From: Rhodoplanes sp. Z2-YC6860
GTDB taxonomy: Bacteria; Pseudomonadota; Alphaproteobacteria; Rhizobiales; Xanthobacteraceae
Reading direction: 5' to 3'
Assembly: GCF_001579845.1 (NCBI RefSeq)
Contig: NZ_CP007440.1
Coordinates: 8,020,029 to 8,084,028 of the forward strand
Length of the DNA stretch: 64,000 nucleotides
In this document: piece after piece, positions 7,271-31,615 of the stretch
Numbering within the stretch: the first letter of the stretch is position 1
How the letters are laid out: every line of letters starts with the position of its first letter
Made by a program: the position numbers and the translations under genes
The notes under the pieces: model-generated
Told to the model about the DNA's origin: nothing
The model's input: the letters and a program-made list of their open reading frames with translations, nothing else
Databases searched by the model: none

Positions 7271-7408
7271 TCCCCTCCCCCGCATAGCCCGTCGAAGACG
7301 GGCGTAAACGCCCTTTCGCGGGGGGAGGGCTAGGGAGGGGGCATGCTGCAGGCACCGGCCGTGATGCAGGCCCCCTCCCCAACCCTCCCCCGCAAGCGGG
7401 AGAGGGAG
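7271..7408. repeat. GC-rich palindromic repeat between DMT permease and Zur-like genes
   Basis: Arms GCGGGGGGAGGGCTAGGGAG and CTCCCCAACCCTCCCCCGC pair across a short loop near 7345-7370. A further inverted block contains GTCGAAGACGGGCG. Same general class as family A. Confidence 0.75.
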
Positions 7409-24898: not shown

Positions 24899-26005
24899 TC
24901 ACTTGCCCCAAACCTCTTCGGACAATTCGACGATCATCTTCAGCTTCGCCCATTGCTCATCCTCGGCGAGAATGTTGCCCTCCTCGGTCGAGGCGAAGCC
25001 GCATTGCGGCGAGAGGCAAAGCTGGTCGAGACCGATGTATTTCGTCGCCTGCTCGATGCGGCGCTTCAATTCGTCCTTCGACTCCAGCTTGCCGGATTTG
25101 GACGTCACCAGACCCAGCACCACGAACTTGTTCTTCGGCACGAAGCGCAGCGGCTCGAAGCCGCCGGCGCGATCCGTGTCGTACTCCATGAAGTAGGCCT
25201 GGATGTTGATCTCGTTGAACAGGATTTCGGCCACTGGCTCGTAGCCGCCCGACGCGACGAACGTGGACTGGAAGTTGCCGCGGCACAGATGCATCGCGGT
25301 CATCATGTCGGCCGGCACGTCGGAGATCGCGGCGTTGATCACCTTGGCATAGATATGCGGGAGCGTCGAAGGGTCATCGCCGCGCTCGGTGACCTGCTGG
25401 CGCAGCGCCGGGTCACAGAGATAGGTGAAGTTCACTTCGTCGAGCTGGATGTAGCGGCATCCGGCATCGGCGAAGGCGCGCACCGCCTTGCGATAGCTCT
25501 GGCCGAGGTCGCTGTAGAACTCCGTCATATCAGGATAGATAGACTCGGGCACCGCCGAGCGGCCGTAGCGGAAGTGCAGCGACGACGGCGACGGGATCGT
25601 CATCTTCGCGGTCTGTTTGGTGTGCGACTGCACGAAACGGAAATGCTCGATCATCGGATGGCCCGAGAAGGCCCCGAGCTTGCCGATCACGCGCAGCATC
25701 ATCGGCTTGGGGTTCTTGCCCTGGAACTTGATCTTGCGCTCGCCGAGATAGGCCTCGACGCCGGGAAGCTTGCCGAGAAAGTCGTAGTTCCAGAACGCCC
25801 GGCGGTATTCGCCGTCGGTGATGGATTTGAGCCCGACCTGCTCCTGCTTCTTGATGATCGCGTCGATCTCGCGATCCTCGACGGCCTTCAGCTGCTCGTC
25901 GGTGATCGCATTGGCCTCGCGCTTGGCGCGGGCCTCCTTCAGCGCGGCGGAACGGAGAAGACTGCCGACATGATCGGCACGAAACGGTGGTTTGGTTCTT
26001 TGCAT
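24899..26005 (-). CDS. MetE-like zinc methyltransferase homologue, copy 4
   Basis: 368 residues: MQRTKPPFRADHVGSLLRSA start, TDGEYRR, zinc ligands in MHLCRGN, FMEYD and SPQCGFAS, and an end of LSEEVWGK. Strongly similar to copy 3 from the first residues to the last, with the family D repeat upstream in the same position, which points to duplication of gene plus intergenic DNA. The ATG at 26005 has AGAG upstream as in copy 3; an upstream in-frame start at 26023 is unlikely. Confidence 0.88.
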   Translation of the reverse strand: MQRTKPPFRADHVGSLLRSAALKEARAKREANAITDEQLKAVEDREIDAIIKKQEQVGLKSITDGEYRRAFWNYDFLGKLPGVEAYLGERKIKFQGKNPKPMMLRVIGKLGAFSGHPMIEHFRFVQSHTKQTAKMTIPSPSSLHFRYGRSAVPESIYPDMTEFYSDLGQSYRKAVRAFADAGCRYIQLDEVNFTYLCDPALRQQVTERGDDPSTLPHIYAKVINAAISDVPADMMTAMHLCRGNFQSTFVASGGYEPVAEILFNEINIQAYFMEYDTDRAGGFEPLRFVPKNKFVVLGLVTSKSGKLESKDELKRRIEQATKYIGLDQLCLSPQCGFASTEEGNILAEDEQWAKLKMIVELSEEVWGK

Positions 26006-26033
26006 TGCCACTACTCTATCCATTCACTCAGGT

Positions 26034-26149
26034 CGTCACCCCCGGGCTTTGACCCGGGGGTCCATACTATGCCGCAGCAGACATCGTTCTTACGTTCTGC
26101 GTGTGCTGCTCCAGCTCATGGATCGCCGGGTCAAGCCCGGCGATGACAG
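26034..26149. repeat. Palindromic intergenic repeat, family D, copy 2
   Basis: Same ends as 24712-24860 (GTCACCCCCGGGCTTTGACC and GCCCGGCGATGACA), located between MetE-like copies 4 and 5. Confidence 0.8.
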
Positions 26150-26187
26150 CGGAGTATGACGTTAGTGCACGAAGCATCGTCTGCCGC

Positions 26188-27294
26188 TCACTTTCCCCAG
26201 ACCTCTTCGGCGAGTTCGACGATCATGCGCAGCTTGGCCCATTGCTCGTCCTCGGCCAGCACATTGCCCTCCTCGGTCGAGGCGAAGCCGCATTGCGGCG
26301 ACAGGCACAACTGGTCGAGCGCGACGTACTTGGTCGCTTCGTCGATGCGGCGCTTGATCTGGTCCTTGCTCTCGAGCTTGCCGCTTTTCGACGTGACCAG
26401 ACCGAGCACCACAGTCTTCTTGCCTTTCGGCACGAAGCGCAGCGGCTCGAAGCCGCCGGCGCGCTCGGTGTCGTATTCCAGGAAATAACCGTCGAGATTG
26501 ACCTCGCCGAGCAGCTTCTCGGCGACGAAGTCGTAACCGCCGCTCGCGATGAAGGTCGAGCGGAAGTTGCCGCGGCACGAATGCATCGAGATCACCATAT
26601 CGGCGGGCTTGCCCTCCAGCGCCTTGTTGGTCATCGCGGCGTATTTCGCCGGCAACGAATCTGGATCGTCGCCGCGCTCGCGCGAGTGCTCGCGCTCCTT
26701 CGGATCGCACAGCATCGACCAGGCGGTGTCGTCCATCTGCAGATAGCGGCAGCCGGCGTCGTAGAACGCACGGATCGCGTTCCGATAAGCCTTGGCGACG
26801 TCGTCGAAATAGGCGTCGAGCTCCGGATAGACCTTCTTGTCGATAGAGGCGCGGCCCTGACGGAAATGCAGCGTGCTGGGCGCGGGAATGGTCATCTTCG
26901 GCGTCACCTTGGAGTGAGCCTTCAGATACTTGAAATGCTCGACATGTGGATGACCGGAGAAACCGATCTTGCCGGTCACCCGCACGCTCTCGGCCTTGGT
27001 GGTGACGCCGGCGAACTGAATGCCTTTGTCGACCGTGTACATCTCGACGCCGTCGAGTCCCTTATAGAAATCGAACTGCCACCAGGAGCGGCGGAACTCG
27101 CCGTCGGTGGCGAGCTTCAGCCCGACCTCCTCCTGCTTGCGAATGATCTTGTCGATCTCGCGGTTCTCGATTTCGGCGAGCTGCGCGTCGATGAGCTCCC
27201 GCTTGGCATGCTTGGCGCGCGCGTCCTTCAGCGGCGCGGTGCGGAGCAGGCTGCCGACGTGATCGGCACGGAATGGCGGTGTGCTGCGCTGCAT
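26188..27294 (-). CDS. MetE-like zinc methyltransferase homologue, copy 5
   Basis: 368 residues: MQRSTPPFRADHVGSLLRTA start, TDGEFRRSWWQFDFYKGLDG, zinc ligands in MHSCRGN, FLEYD and SPQCGFAS. It differs from copies 3 and 4 in the pocket-facing segment after GCRYLQ (MDDTAWSM where they have LDEVN), a feature shared with copy 6. The ATG at 27294 has GGGAGGA upstream; the frame opens 20 codons earlier without support. Confidence 0.88.
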   Translation of the reverse strand: MQRSTPPFRADHVGSLLRTAPLKDARAKHAKRELIDAQLAEIENREIDKIIRKQEEVGLKLATDGEFRRSWWQFDFYKGLDGVEMYTVDKGIQFAGVTTKAESVRVTGKIGFSGHPHVEHFKYLKAHSKVTPKMTIPAPSTLHFRQGRASIDKKVYPELDAYFDDVAKAYRNAIRAFYDAGCRYLQMDDTAWSMLCDPKEREHSRERGDDPDSLPAKYAAMTNKALEGKPADMVISMHSCRGNFRSTFIASGGYDFVAEKLLGEVNLDGYFLEYDTERAGGFEPLRFVPKGKKTVVLGLVTSKSGKLESKDQIKRRIDEATKYVALDQLCLSPQCGFASTEEGNVLAEDEQWAKLRMIVELAEEVWGK

Positions 27295-27364
27295 TGCGTC
27301 GTCCTCCCTATGGCTGCGCCGTGTGCTTGCCGCTGTCGACGCCATCGTGGCCACTTGCTCCGGC

Positions 27365-27478
27365 CGTCACCCGCGGGCTTGACCCGCGGGTCCATGCGAT
27401 GCTGCCGCAAGCCATGTTCTTACGAACCTGGCGCGCTGCGCCCGCTCATGGATCGCCGGGTCAAGCCCGGCGATGACA
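27365..27478. repeat. Palindromic intergenic repeat, family D, copy 3
   Basis: GTCACCCGCGGGCTTGACCC and GCGGGTCCATGC at one end, ATGGATCGCCGGGTCAAGCC and CGGCGATGACA at the other, between MetE-like copies 5 and 6. Confidence 0.8.
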
Positions 27479-27549
27479 CCGAGCGAGAGGCGACGGCAAT
27501 CCACCTCAATTTGCGACTTGATCCAAACTCAATCCAACTCACTCCGAGC

Positions 27550-28656
27550 TCACTTCCCCCAAACCTCTTCGGCGATCTCGACCACCTCGCGCATCTTCGC
27601 CCATTGCTGTTCCTCGGTGAGCACGTTGCCCTCCTCGGTCGAGGCGAAACCGCATTGCGGGCTCAGCGCCATCTGCTCCATCGGCATGAACTTCGCAGCC
27701 TCGTCGAGACGGCGCTTGACGGTATCCTTGCTCTCCAGCGTGCCGCTCTTCGAGGTGATCACGCCGACCACGACGATCTTGTTGCCCTTGGGCAGGAAGC
27801 GCAGCGGCTCGAAGCCACCGGCGCGGTCCGAGTCGTATTCGAGGAAGTAGCCGTCGAAGTTGCACTTCGCGAGCAGGCGCTCGGCGATCGGCTCGTAGCC
27901 GCCCGACGAAATCCAGGTCGAGCGGAAGTTGCCGCGACAGACATGCGTCGTGATCGTCATGTCGGCCGGCTTGTCCTTGATCGAGTCGTTGATCAGCTTG
28001 GTGTAGTCATCGGCCAGCGTCGCGACATTCATCCCGCGCTCCTTGGCCCGCTTCATCTCCACGTCGGAGCAGAGATACGCCCACGCAGTGTCATCGAACT
28101 GCAGATAGCGGCAACCGGCGTCGTAGAACCCCTTCACGGCCTTGCGGTAAGCGGCAGCGAGGTCGGACAGGATCGCGTCGTTGTTCGGATACGCAGTCTT
28201 GGCAACCGCGCCCGGCTCAAGGCGGAAGTGAAACACCGTCGGCGCCGGGATGCACATCTTCGGCATCACCTTGGTGTGGTTCTTCACGAAGGTGAAATGC
28301 TCAAGCATCGGGTGCTTGCTGAAGTCGATCTTGCCGGTGACGCGGATGCCCTTCGGCTTGGTCTGCACACCCTGGAACTGGATGCCGTGATCCATCTCGT
28401 AGACCTCGACATTGTCGAGGCCGTCATAGAAGTCGTAGTGCCAGAACATCCGGCGATACTCGCCGTCGGTCACGCATTGCAGCCCGACGTCTTCCTGCTT
28501 CTTGATGACCTTCGGAATCTCCGCATCCTCGACCTTCTTCAGATCGGCCGCGCTGATCTGACCCTTGTCGCGCTTGGCGCGCGCCTCGGTGATCGCCGCG
28601 GAGCGCAGATAGCTGCCGACATGGTCGGCGCGGAACGGCGGCTTGGTTCTTTTCAT
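27550..28656 (-). CDS. MetE-like zinc methyltransferase homologue, copy 6
   Basis: 368 residues: MKRTKPPFRADHVGSYLRSA start, TDGEYRR at 64-70. Zinc ligands are H238-x-C240 (THVCRGN), E273 (FLEYD) and C335 (SPQCGFAS). GCRYLQFDDTAWAYL is shared in style with copy 5. The ATG at 28656 has GAGGAG upstream; the frame extends to 28746 with no better start. It is the first gene of the minus-strand array and divergent from the HAAT binding-protein gene at 29008, so one control region may serve both. Confidence 0.88.
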   Translation of the reverse strand: MKRTKPPFRADHVGSYLRSAAITEARAKRDKGQISAADLKKVEDAEIPKVIKKQEDVGLQCVTDGEYRRMFWHYDFYDGLDNVEVYEMDHGIQFQGVQTKPKGIRVTGKIDFSKHPMLEHFTFVKNHTKVMPKMCIPAPTVFHFRLEPGAVAKTAYPNNDAILSDLAAAYRKAVKGFYDAGCRYLQFDDTAWAYLCSDVEMKRAKERGMNVATLADDYTKLINDSIKDKPADMTITTHVCRGNFRSTWISSGGYEPIAERLLAKCNFDGYFLEYDSDRAGGFEPLRFLPKGNKIVVVGVITSKSGTLESKDTVKRRLDEAAKFMPMEQMALSPQCGFASTEEGNVLTEEQQWAKMREVVEIAEEVWGK

Positions 28657-29007
28657 CTCGGTCGTCTCCTCACTCGTCAATTCGTCGTTCGTTGGCAACA
28701 TTGCATCAGCATCGCACGTGTTCATGTCAGTGGTCGAGAACGGCACCTCTCGTCAACCCTCACCGGACGTTGCGGGACGACGACTTGCGTGCGTGGGAAG
28801 GCTCCCATTTCGACTCGCGGCCGCCGGAACGGAAGTGGGTTTTGCTGGCCATGTTGCAGCGCCGATATTCGACGAAAGATGCGCTGAAACGCCGCGTTTT
28901 CAGCGGCCCACTCGCTTGCCGCACCAGGCGCTTTCAACCTAGTATCCGCGCCGAACAGGCCGCGCTCGGGGGACAGCGGCCCGCGTCACTTTTCTGGGAG
29001 GATTCCA
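28657..29007. other. Divergent intergenic region between MetE-like array and HAAT transporter
   Basis: 351 bases without a convincing gene. It must hold the promoters of both the MetE-like array (minus) and the transporter (plus). It contains an 8-bp stem hairpin CGCTGAAA / TTTCAGCG at 28882-28905 and a candidate sigma70 promoter facing the transporter at 28916-28945. Two short overlapping frames here have no supported start. Confidence 0.6.
28916..28945 (+). promoter_or_regulatory. Candidate promoter of the HAAT binding-protein gene
   Basis: TTGCCG (28916-28921), an 18-base spacer and TAGTAT (28940-28945), about 60 bases before the ATG at 29008, which has GGGAGGA upstream. It matches the sigma70 pattern only partly, so this is a candidate. 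Confidence 0.35.
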
Positions 29008-30213
29008 ATGTTCAAACGCTTACTTTTGGCGTCGGCCGCGCTGGCGCTGACCACCGCGCTGTCGCAGGCGCAGGAGGTCAAGATCGGCCTCGTTGCCCCC
29101 TTTACCGGCATCGGCGCGGAGCTCGGTCAGCAGATCGACCGCGGCGTCGAGCAGTATCTCAAGCTGCGGGGCGACGAGTACAAGCCTTACAAGATCAACG
29201 TGATCAAGCGCGACGACAAGGACCCGTCGGGCGCCAACTCCAAGATCGCGGTGCAGGAGCTCCTGACCCAGGACAATGTCGATGCGCTCGCCGGCTGGAT
29301 CTATTCCCCGAACGCGATCGCGTCGGCGCCGGTCGTCACCGCCGGCAAGAAGATCGCCGTGCTGATGAATGCCGGCACCGCACACATCACCACCATGTCA
29401 CCCTACTTCGTGCGCACCTCGTTCAGCATGTGGCACTCGGGCTACGCGTTGGGTGAAGCCGCCGTCAAGCAGCTCAAGGCCAAGACCGCGGTCGTGGGCT
29501 ACAGCGACTTCCCGCCCGGCAAGGACAGCCTCGCGGCGTTCAAGCGCTCGTTCGAAGCCAATGGGGGCAAGGTGATCGACGAAGTCCCGATGGGCGGCGC
29601 CGGCCAGGTGCCGGACTTCACGCCGTTCTTCCAGCGCGTGAAGGACAAGAAGCCGGACGTCTTCTTCGTGTTCGTGCCGGCCGGCGACCACTCGCTGGCC
29701 GTGGTGAAGACCTATGGCGCGCTCGGCATGAGGGAAGCTGGCATCAAGCTGATCGGCCCGGGCGACATCACCCAGGACATCAAGCTGCAGGCGATGGGCG
29801 ACGCGGCCGTGGGCCTCATCACCATGCACCACTACTATGCCGACCTGGACAACCCCGCGAACAAGGCCCTGGTCGCGTCGTGGAAGAAGGACTACGGGCC
29901 GGACGCGACGCCGGACTTCGTCGCGCTCGGCGCCTATGACGGCATGGCCGCGCTCGCCCACATGATCACGGCGACCAAGGGCAAGATCACTGACACCGCC
30001 GCGGCGCTCGCCTCGCTCAAGGACTGGAAATACAACAGCCCTCGCGGCCCGATCTCGATCGATCCGGAGACCCGCGACATCGTCATGAATGAGTATCTGT
30101 CCGAAGTGGTGAAAGGCAGCGACGGCAAGCTGCACCAGAAGCAGATCGGCAAGATCGAGCACGTCAAGGACCCGTGCAAGGCCGAGAAGATCGGCCCCTG
30201 CGCACCGAAATGA
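29008..30213 (+). CDS. HAAT-family ABC transporter substrate-binding protein (LivK-like)
   Basis: 401 residues with a signal peptide (MFKRLLLASAALALTTALSQ, cut after AQA/AQE) and the type I binding fold (VKIGLVAPFTGIGAELGQQI). It should deliver its ligand to the LivHMGF set encoded 540 bases downstream. Two Cys near the end (DPCKAEKIGPCAPK) could form a disulfide. The ligand is not an obvious branched-chain amino acid; divergent linkage to MetE-like genes suggests a methylated or thiol-reactive compound, which is inference. Confidence 0.93.
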   Translation: MFKRLLLASAALALTTALSQAQEVKIGLVAPFTGIGAELGQQIDRGVEQYLKLRGDEYKPYKINVIKRDDKDPSGANSKIAVQELLTQDNVDALAGWIYSPNAIASAPVVTAGKKIAVLMNAGTAHITTMSPYFVRTSFSMWHSGYALGEAAVKQLKAKTAVVGYSDFPPGKDSLAAFKRSFEANGGKVIDEVPMGGAGQVPDFTPFFQRVKDKKPDVFFVFVPAGDHSLAVVKTYGALGMREAGIKLIGPGDITQDIKLQAMGDAAVGLITMHHYYADLDNPANKALVASWKKDYGPDATPDFVALGAYDGMAALAHMITATKGKITDTAAALASLKDWKYNSPRGPISIDPETRDIVMNEYLSEVVKGSDGKLHQKQIGKIEHVKDPCKAEKIGPCAPK

Positions 30214-30242
30214 CGATGGCCCGATAGGCCTTTTGCATCACG

Positions 30243-30277
30243 AAACCGCCGCCCTGACCGGGCGGCGGTTTTGCTTT
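30243..30277 (+). terminator. Rho-independent-like terminator after the binding-protein gene
   Basis: A 12-bp perfect stem AAACCGCCGCCC / GGGCGGCGGTTT with loop TGACC, followed by TGCTTT. It would separate high-level binding-protein mRNA from the membrane components, the usual arrangement in binding-protein operons. Confidence 0.75.
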
Positions 30278-30334
30278 GGGCGTGACAAGCGCGCGATCGC
30301 TTGAAGTGCTGCTGCGGCATCAGCGGTGCGCTCC

Positions 30335-30557
30335 CTCCCCGCCAGGGCCCGGCAATCGCATATGTTCGCGGCGAGGCCACGAGTCCCCTCTCCCGCTTGC
30401 GGGAGAGGGTGGCGAGCGTAGGCGAGCCGGGAGAGGGCTCTTTCTGTCTGGCAGCCCTCTCCCCCCTCGCATTCGCTCGGGACCCTCTCCCGCAAGCGGG
30501 AGAGGGGACCAAATCGCACCAGCGAGTCATATGCGATTGCCCCGCCCTGGCGGGGAG
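30335..30557. repeat. 223-bp nested palindrome
   Basis: Outer arms of 30 bases (30335-30364 and 30528-30557) match at 28 positions: CTCCCCGCCAGGGC, two mismatched bases, then GGCAATCGCATATG. Inside lie arms CCCCTCTCCCGCTTGCGGGA and TCCCGCAAGCGGGAGAGGGG, then GGGAGAGGGCT and AGCCCTCTCCC around a short centre. Almost the whole block can fold as one hairpin. Confidence 0.85.
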
Positions 30558-30698
30558 AGATGGCGGCTGTGGCACGGCCGATACAAATCTCAAGCGACCA
30601 CGCGACAAGATGACTTCCACGATGGTCTGAATTGGCGTTTGGCCTGCGATGCTCTATGTTTTTCGAAAGCCGGAACAACCGGCGGGGGGAATGTGGAA

Positions 30699-30755
30699 AT
30701 GGACCGGGCGCGAGCCATGACTTCGCACGCCCCGATCAGGCGGGCCTTAGCGTGA
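30699..30755 (+). CDS. Possible 18-residue leader peptide before livH
   Basis: ATG at 30699 with GGGGGA 8 bases upstream encodes MDRARAMTSHAPIRRALA and stops at a TGA that overlaps the livH GTG start (GTGA). The good ribosome site and overlap suggest translational coupling. There is no conservation evidence, so it may be chance. Confidence 0.35.
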   Translation: MDRARAMTSHAPIRRALA

Positions 30756-31615
30756 TCGAAATCGCCAATATGGTGCTGGGCGGCCTTGCCGCCGGTATGG
30801 TGCTGTTCATCGTCTCGGTCGGCCTCTCGGTGACCATGGGGCTGATGGGCTTCGTCAATCTCGCCCACGGCGGCTTCGCCATGATCGGCGGCTACGTCAT
30901 CGTGCTGGCGATGAACCGGCTCGGCATCCCGTTCGTGCCGGCGCTGGCCTTGGGCTTCATCGTGGTCGCAGCCATCAGCGCCGTGTTCGAGCGGCTGTTG
31001 TACTCCCGCCTGTACCGCGCCCCCGAACTCGACCAGGTGCTGTTCACCATCGGGCTTGTCTTCATCATGACCGCCTCGGTGCTTCTGGTGGTTGGGCCGG
31101 AGACGCAGCCGCTGACCCTGCCGACCTCAATGCAGGGGCAGCTCAACCTGGGCTTTATGACCTATCGCACCTACAGCGTCGTGCTGATTGTGGTGGGCGT
31201 CATCATCATGCTGGCGCTGTGGCTCGGCTTCGAGCGCACCCGCATGGGCGCGCAGATCCGCGCCGCGGTCGACAACCGCCGCATGGCAGAATCGCTCGGC
31301 ATCAACATCACACGGCTGTTCACCATCACGTTCGCGTTCGGCAGCGGCATGGCGGCGCTGGGCGGCGGGCTCGGCGCCGAGTTCCTCGGCCTCGATCCGC
31401 AATATCCGCTGAAGTACCTGGTGATGTTCCTGATCGTCGTTGCGGTCGGCGGGCTCGGCCGCATCACCGGCGTGTTCTACGCCGCGCTGATCATCGGCGT
31501 GGTCGACTTCACGCTGAAGAAATACCTGCCGCAGGGCGGCACCGTGTTCATCTATGCCATGACCATCCTGCTCCTCCTGTGGAGACCGCAGGGGCTGTTC
31601 GGACGTCCGACATGA
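30752..31615 (+). CDS. livH: Branched-chain amino acid-type ABC permease LivH
   Basis: 287 residues from the GTG at 30752 (VIEIANMVLGGLAAGMVLFI), with eight or so membrane segments and the LivH signatures VTMGLMGFVNLAHGGF and VVAVGGLGRITGVFYAAL. It is the first membrane subunit of a HAAT transporter. The open frame begins at 30632, but those codons look non-native and lack a start signal. An ATG six codons in (30770) is an alternative. The TGA overlaps the livM ATG. Confidence 0.9.
   Translation: MIEIANMVLGGLAAGMVLFIVSVGLSVTMGLMGFVNLAHGGFAMIGGYVIVLAMNRLGIPFVPALALGFIVVAAISAVFERLLYSRLYRAPELDQVLFTIGLVFIMTASVLLVVGPETQPLTLPTSMQGQLNLGFMTYRTYSVVLIVVGVIIMLALWLGFERTRMGAQIRAAVDNRRMAESLGINITRLFTITFAFGSGMAALGGGLGAEFLGLDPQYPLKYLVMFLIVVAVGGLGRITGVFYAALIIGVVDFTLKKYLPQGGTVFIYAMTILLLLWRPQGLFGRPT

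Follow-up and report, generated by a model that had tools for sequence, protein, structure and literature searches.

REP-like palindromes are common in intergenic regions of alphaproteobacteria. To our knowledge, their mover is unclear in genomes without a detectable Y1 transposase.

Several described systems are close to the locus analysed here; comparisons refer to the accessible parts of the cited papers. ISArsp11, an ISAs1 element, has ends beginning with CAGGGC and a 10-bp direct repeat (PMC6305408). TIMEs are reported to fold into long stem-loops of -70 to -115 kcal/mol (PMC4133298). IS3, IS110, IS4, IS256 and IS5 elements target REPs (PMC1525189). Bacterial MITEs (PMC10969869), REP/BIME repeats (PMC3733652) and the Br-REP1 and Br-REP2 repeats of Bradyrhizobium (PMC5082802) complete the set.

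The window is the whole analysed stretch of 64,000 nucleotides of Rhodoplanes sp. Z2-YC6860. It contains a block (30331-30562) that is read, with a probability of about 0.86 and from sequence comparison, as a 197-bp ISAs1-type MITE carrying an inverted pair of REP-like palindromes and inserted in a GC-rich REP-like palindrome. CAGGGC ends are found here as in ISArsp11, and ISAs1 elements of related genomes (NF033564 transposase) have 15-16 of 17 TIR (terminal inverted repeat) bases in common with the family consensus. Unlike these elements, the window element has 197 bp, no transposase, a REP-like pair, and flanking 10-mers that are inverted and not direct. Like bacterial MITEs, it is short, non-autonomous and hairpin-forming, with TIRs resembling those of an autonomous element. 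Unlike those of TIMEs, its TIRs are ISAs1-like, not Tn3-like, and the same TIRs frame different REP-like pairs. It shares with REP/BIME repeats the GC-rich palindromes, the inverted pairs and the location near gene ends; it differs from GTAG- and CGTC-tagged REPs in that no conserved tag and no Y1 transposase were found and in that ISAs1-like TIRs enclose the palindromes. It sits inside a palindromic repeat, as REP-targeting IS elements do, but unlike them it also carries such repeats. Br-REP1 and Br-REP2, from related bacteria, are likewise intergenic repeats made of several palindromes and located close to gene 3' ends; their printed consensus sequences differ from the present ones, and the accessible text mentions neither a TIR frame nor a duplication. 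In the accessible text, ISAs1 has no mention in the main text of the MITE review (PMC10969869), no occurrence in PMC1525189, and is found in PMC4133298 only in the reference list.

Features are given below in window coordinates, with strand (+, -, or none assigned).

29008-30213, strand not given: binding-protein gene (Peripla_BP_6).
30243-30271, none assigned: terminator-like hairpin, after the binding-protein gene and ahead of the element.
30331..30347, +: left half of the split GC-rich palindrome (putative target), bounded by the TIR end; family targets are often palindromic.
30338-30347, +: left target-duplication position, CCCGCCAGGG, the last 10 nt of the left target half.
30348..30544, none assigned: whole putative MITE, 197 bp.
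30348..30364, +: left TIR, CCCGGCAATCGCATATG, 15/17 to the family TIR CAGGGCAATCGCATATG.
30365..30385, +: left subterminal stretch, with GTC at its end before core 1; common to the short copies in the alignment.
30386..30409, none assigned: REP-like core 1, CCCTCTCCCGC-TT-GCGGGAGAGGG, self-palindromic; searched as a 20-mer with at most two mismatches, it has 27 genome sites, against one for the reversed control.
30410..30482, none assigned: inner stem of the REP-like pair, delimited from arms and fold (arms 30410-30439 and 30453-30482, 13-nt loop).
30483..30506, none assigned: REP-like core 2, CCCTCTCCCGC-AA-GCGGGAGAGGG, self-palindromic.
30507..30527, +: right subterminal stretch, GACCAAATCGCACCAGCGAGT, largely kept in the four short copies.
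30528..30544, -: right TIR, 16/17 to the family TIR.
30545..30562, +: right half of the split palindrome, including the target-duplication position 30545-30554, CCCTGGCGGG.
30752-31615, strand not given: livH (BPD_transp_2).

The block is a three-layer nested palindrome, with the TIRs as its middle layer. The outer 30-nt arms (30335-30364 and 30528-30557) are identical at 28/30 positions and can be extended to 33 nt at 91%; the inner arms (30383-30439 and 30453-30509) have 57 nt and match at 89%; two self-palindromic cores of 24 nt (30386-30409 and 30483-30506) lie inside. The RNA fold of 30331-30562 reaches -187.7 kcal/mol, against -104.3 (sd 5.0) for shuffles (z -16.6; 0/200 as low). The nested palindrome described by the sequence-only reading is thus real and far beyond chance. 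Its limits had been set to 223 bp and are corrected here to about 30331-30562; its symmetry is imperfect, the 197-bp core and its own reverse complement being identical at 154/203 aligned columns. Its location, after the binding-protein terminator and before livH, is borne out by the gene domains and by the terminator-like hairpin. Folding of the wider region 30214-30760 gives z -12.1, with 0/100 shuffles as low. The Rfam search of the block (E up to 1) returned 16 matches, mostly to miRNA-precursor models, and none of them reached the gathering score. These were considered generic long hairpins, and a described RNA family was rejected. None of the four ORFs crossing the element region matches a Pfam family at E 0.001.

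The genome searched is a single contig of 8.19 Mb. It contains the window copy and seven others (BLAST), some of which are short, degenerate or truncated. The outer arms, whose absence elsewhere had been named as an argument against mobility, are thus found at other sites. The copy at 6,751,922 is near-full (192/198 columns identical over the MITE); that at 6,253,720 is truncated; that at 900,583 is long and degenerate. Four short copies (1,930,681; 6,849,364; 600,207; 7,522,070) have one core, not two. A covariance model built from these four, which it finds by construction, also recovers the window, 6,751,922 and 6,253,720 copies. Covariation among the four short copies was dropped as support: two pairs show double changes and 122/500 shuffles score as high (20-32/500 for other measures). 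Two exact-pattern scans of genome contigs gave no match, and a plasmid search gave three records that cover at most 36% of the query. Eleven of the 13 element loci are free of overlapping ORFs in a simple ORF call; at c6751 and i3729, the element is overlapped by an ORF whose start is probably over-long.

Two observations concern the surroundings of these copies. A repeat of about 0.5 kb (L128 3206-3720; also L131, L141, L142, L143) is found at five sites in the window's genome; the other four copies are 77-96% identical to the L128 copy, and two adjoin element copies. It was considered as a possible parent element and set aside: no transposase was noticed in a by-eye ORF listing, and Rfam gave no match at gathering level. 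Copies L128 and L131 have 595 bp in common at 88%, right arm included; their interiors differ, being a portion of the long type in one copy and the short type in the other, which suggests interior gain, loss or conversion in place.

The TIRs extend beyond this genome. The 15-mer GGGCAATCGCATATG is found in 13/198 genomes of the family, belonging to 6/47 genera, often as inverted pairs; it occurs 27 times in G123 and 13 times in another genome, and the reversed control pattern has no matches in the table. Stretches around the matches listed for three genomes (34, G123 being represented by part of its 27 occurrences) and loci of other genomes were examined. The best inverted pair, 60-600 bp apart, was retained per locus; after removal of duplicates, 25 TIR pairs from 10 genomes remained, 6 in the window's genome and 19 from 9 others. 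Compared as direct repeats, the flanking 10-mers of these 19 pairs have an identity of 0.742; shuffles have a mean of 0.455 and a maximum of 0.626, and 0/2000 are as high. Length 12 shows a weak excess (0.474 vs a shuffled maximum of 0.469); no other length between 4 and 14 is conspicuous in the 19 pairs. The count includes ill-fitting pairs (L158, 0/10; L176 and L190, 4/10 each). From this peak at 10, the flanking direct repeats are the 10-bp target-site duplication of the TIR family. The direct signal is weak for the six pairs of the window's genome (0.633 vs 0.532; 40/2000 shuffles as high). The flanking 10-mers of the window copy (30338-30347 and 30545-30554) match at 10/10 as reverse complement and at 6/10 as direct repeat; this lack of a clean direct duplication stands against the MITE reading, as does the fact that movement of the element has not been observed. 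A family-wide search with model R1, whose rows are four copies of the window's genome, gave matches in 5/198 genomes; the four weak matches outside the window's genome were inspected, then set aside. One TIR frame in G033 (L146 336-1517) has grown to 1182 bp; judged by eye, the extra length seems to come from an insertion sequence of the IS5 type lying within the frame.

Autonomous elements with these ends are found in related genomes. PF13808 is present in 2/13 TIR-bearing genomes. The element at L204 (G058) has 1220 bp, TIRs at 15/17 and 16/17 and a perfect 10-bp duplication, GCCCCTACCC; its broken transposase gene survives as three frame pieces, all with matches to NF033564 ISAs1 (4e-36, 3e-35, 1e-21). 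The first piece was used as query over 391 family genomes, 31 of which have matches at E 1e-20 or better. Both TIRs were found at 15/17 or better in 16 of the 30 loci returned (L204 included), with an element size of about 1.2 kb; the other 14 do not show both TIRs at 15/17. Twelve of the 16 have a 10/10 duplication; four do not, in one case owing to a truncated flank. TIR sequence, duplication length and transposase family therefore all agree on ISAs1, and the near-identical TIRs of ISAs1 elements together with the 10-bp duplications lead to the reading of the window element as a 197-bp ISAs1-type MITE. In the window's genome, PF13808 has no match and no ISAs1 transposase was found at E 1e-20 (8 candidates scored). 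Present mobility would be limited by this absence of an autonomous partner, which a stranded MITE does not require; as neither a Y1 nor an ISAs1 transposase was detected in the genome, the element is probably stranded now.

Targets were rebuilt by joining flanks for 25 insertions: 13 IS (10/10 duplication) and 12 MITEs (at least 8/10). L231 is included (TIRs 14/17 and 12/17); L232 is left out (10/10 duplication, ends unlike those of the family). In 14/25 targets, at least 8/10 pairs are complementary about a centre within the duplication; among 715 control windows drawn from the same loci, 1.4% reach this level. Palindromes of the form CCCTCCCC-N-GGGGAGGG are frequent among the targets, and it is a split target of this type that, as read from the sequence, forms the outermost arms of the window block.

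Most interiors are also palindromic. In 18/20 elements, the interior fold is much more stable than that of shuffles (z -4.6 to -13.3); in L151 and L158, it is like that of shuffles (z -1.2 and -1.1). Most interiors were recognised by eye as inverted REP-like palindrome pairs. They vary between genomes, even within one (G156: L149 vs L161); some have stretches of 21-61 nt in common, and one pair aligns over 154 nt at 70%. Ten interiors were compared with host repeats in random samples of five genomes (L147 was dropped, its pair not being found by the script). The counts were too small and not cleanly diagonal; the claim is therefore limited to interiors that differ.

Alternatively, the inner palindromes could be the mobile or functional unit, as in REP/BIME-type repeats, moved by a RAYT or similar protein, with outer arms that are accidental flanks. 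The inner pair indeed occurs without clear outer arms at five genome sites (3729896, 3741202, 2820451, 3506556 and 3779193, the last with its halves in reversed order), and 11/13 element loci are at most 50 nt from a called gene 3' end, as REPs often are (exceptions: the window copy, 117 nt, and c6751). However, the outer arms recur around different interiors in other genomes, with a 10-bp duplication, and no Y1 (PF01797)/RAYT transposase was found in the genome by a search that was positive in 5/14 control genomes. GTAG is found at 30418 in only 2/7 aligned rows, and CGTC is absent from the window copy. This explanation is considered very unlikely.

Under the MITE reading, an ISAs1-type transposase would have moved this copy, supplied by an element that the genome lost or never kept. 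The element, with 17-bp inverted-repeat ends, would have entered the middle of a GC-rich REP-like palindrome, whose halves would now be the outermost arms. The flanking 10-mers may once have been a near-palindromic direct duplication, later homogenised through hairpin or cruciform pairing: as the target is near-palindromic, arm correction through hairpin pairing would turn a direct repeat into an inverted one. Arms are more alike within one copy than between copies (permutation fraction of 0.021 over 7 copies), which would fit such correction. Target palindrome, TIRs and interior pair would each be symmetric and nested in one another, so that the whole block folds as a single long hairpin. The same likeness of arms would also fit a palindrome that arose by chance or mutation and grew through local duplication and inversion, since some arm correction may act; this origin is contradicted by the dispersed copies, by TIRs common to several genera and by the 10-bp duplications, and is given almost no credence.

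The element is absent from the nine orthologous loci that have both genes on the contig. These come from 9/10 other genomes of the genus; their best TIR match is at most 10/17 and their best core match at most 13/20. G004 has the most similar binding-protein gene (90%); its contig ends 244 nt past the match, and the element is not present in those 244 nt. Divergence at these loci is too great for the empty site to be read at single-base level. The distance from the terminator arm to the leader hairpin is 399 nt here vs 46-108 nt in the seven relatives in which both patterns could be placed. The recent arrival or mobility proposed by the sequence-only reading gains support from these nine loci, the dispersed arms, the 192/198 copy and the TIRs with 10-bp duplications elsewhere.

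The sequence-only reading had also proposed RNA control of the membrane subunits. The corresponding explanation is that transcripts reading through from the binding-protein gene fold at this point, protecting its mRNA or restraining expression of livH. Such a role is ascribed to the REPs between malE and malF. The very stable fold and the position between binding-protein and membrane-subunit genes are those expected from such a hairpin. Nevertheless, it is absent from the nine testable orthologous intergenic regions, which keep a terminator-like arm after the binding-protein gene and a leader ORF before livH, and in the window the terminator-like hairpin lies ahead of the element. The conserved leader is at 30660-30755 in the window: a hairpin and an ORF, MDRARAMTSHAPIRRALA, conserved in the genus. 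By pattern, the CCGG-N-CCGG hairpin is found in 8/10 loci; the leader ORF (16-23 codons, stop overlapping the livH start) is found in 9/10, or 10/10 when L047 is read by eye with a GTG start. RNA control of livH by the palindrome is left unsupported, since the insertion lies upstream of this conserved hairpin and of the leader ORF, both of which persist in relatives without the palindrome; a regulatory hairpin of the operon is regarded as unlikely. The leader itself could act by translational coupling or attenuation. A promoter-like hexamer pair near the hairpin, counted without a control run, has 7-10 of 12 positions in 8/10 loci; the best pair of L042 has a different -10, and the best pairs of L040 and L047 are elsewhere. 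A promoter scan of the window found none. A putative livH promoter near the leader hairpin is offered as a suggestion from these pairs; if real, it would make livH expression possible without transcription through the palindrome. An incidental effect of the palindrome on mRNA decay is possible. The putative MITE would be mainly selfish, tolerated between the terminator-like hairpin and the livH leader. Hairpins of such length and nesting can thus arise without selection for an RNA function, which calls for caution before they are named riboregulators.

A wider reading, tentative and rather doubtful at present, is that ISAs1 TIR frames are vehicles for REP-like palindromes. The transposase would aim at REP-like hairpins, MITEs would acquire these palindromes in pairs, and palindromes within palindromes would build up over repeated rounds. 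If true, this would be a RAYT-independent spread of GC-rich intergenic repeats in these alphaproteobacteria, with one conserved TIR set carrying different interiors in different genera. The ISAs1-type frame, with its conserved ends, its preference for palindromic targets and the various palindrome pairs that it holds, would be a concrete and testable vehicle. Each part belongs to a known kind. Neither the nesting nor a common frame around differing interiors was found described in the accessible parts of the sources. No description of ISAs1-type MITEs with these ends was found in the accessible open-licence PMC literature, a statement that applies to this literature and not to print as a whole.

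Other features of the window are as follows. No other TIR match of at least 13/17 is present in it. Two more single GC-rich palindrome cores of a related type are found at 417-440 and 7383-7406. Three tandem genes at 24899-28746 (-) each encode a Meth_synt_2 domain (cobalamin-independent methionine synthase, catalytic).
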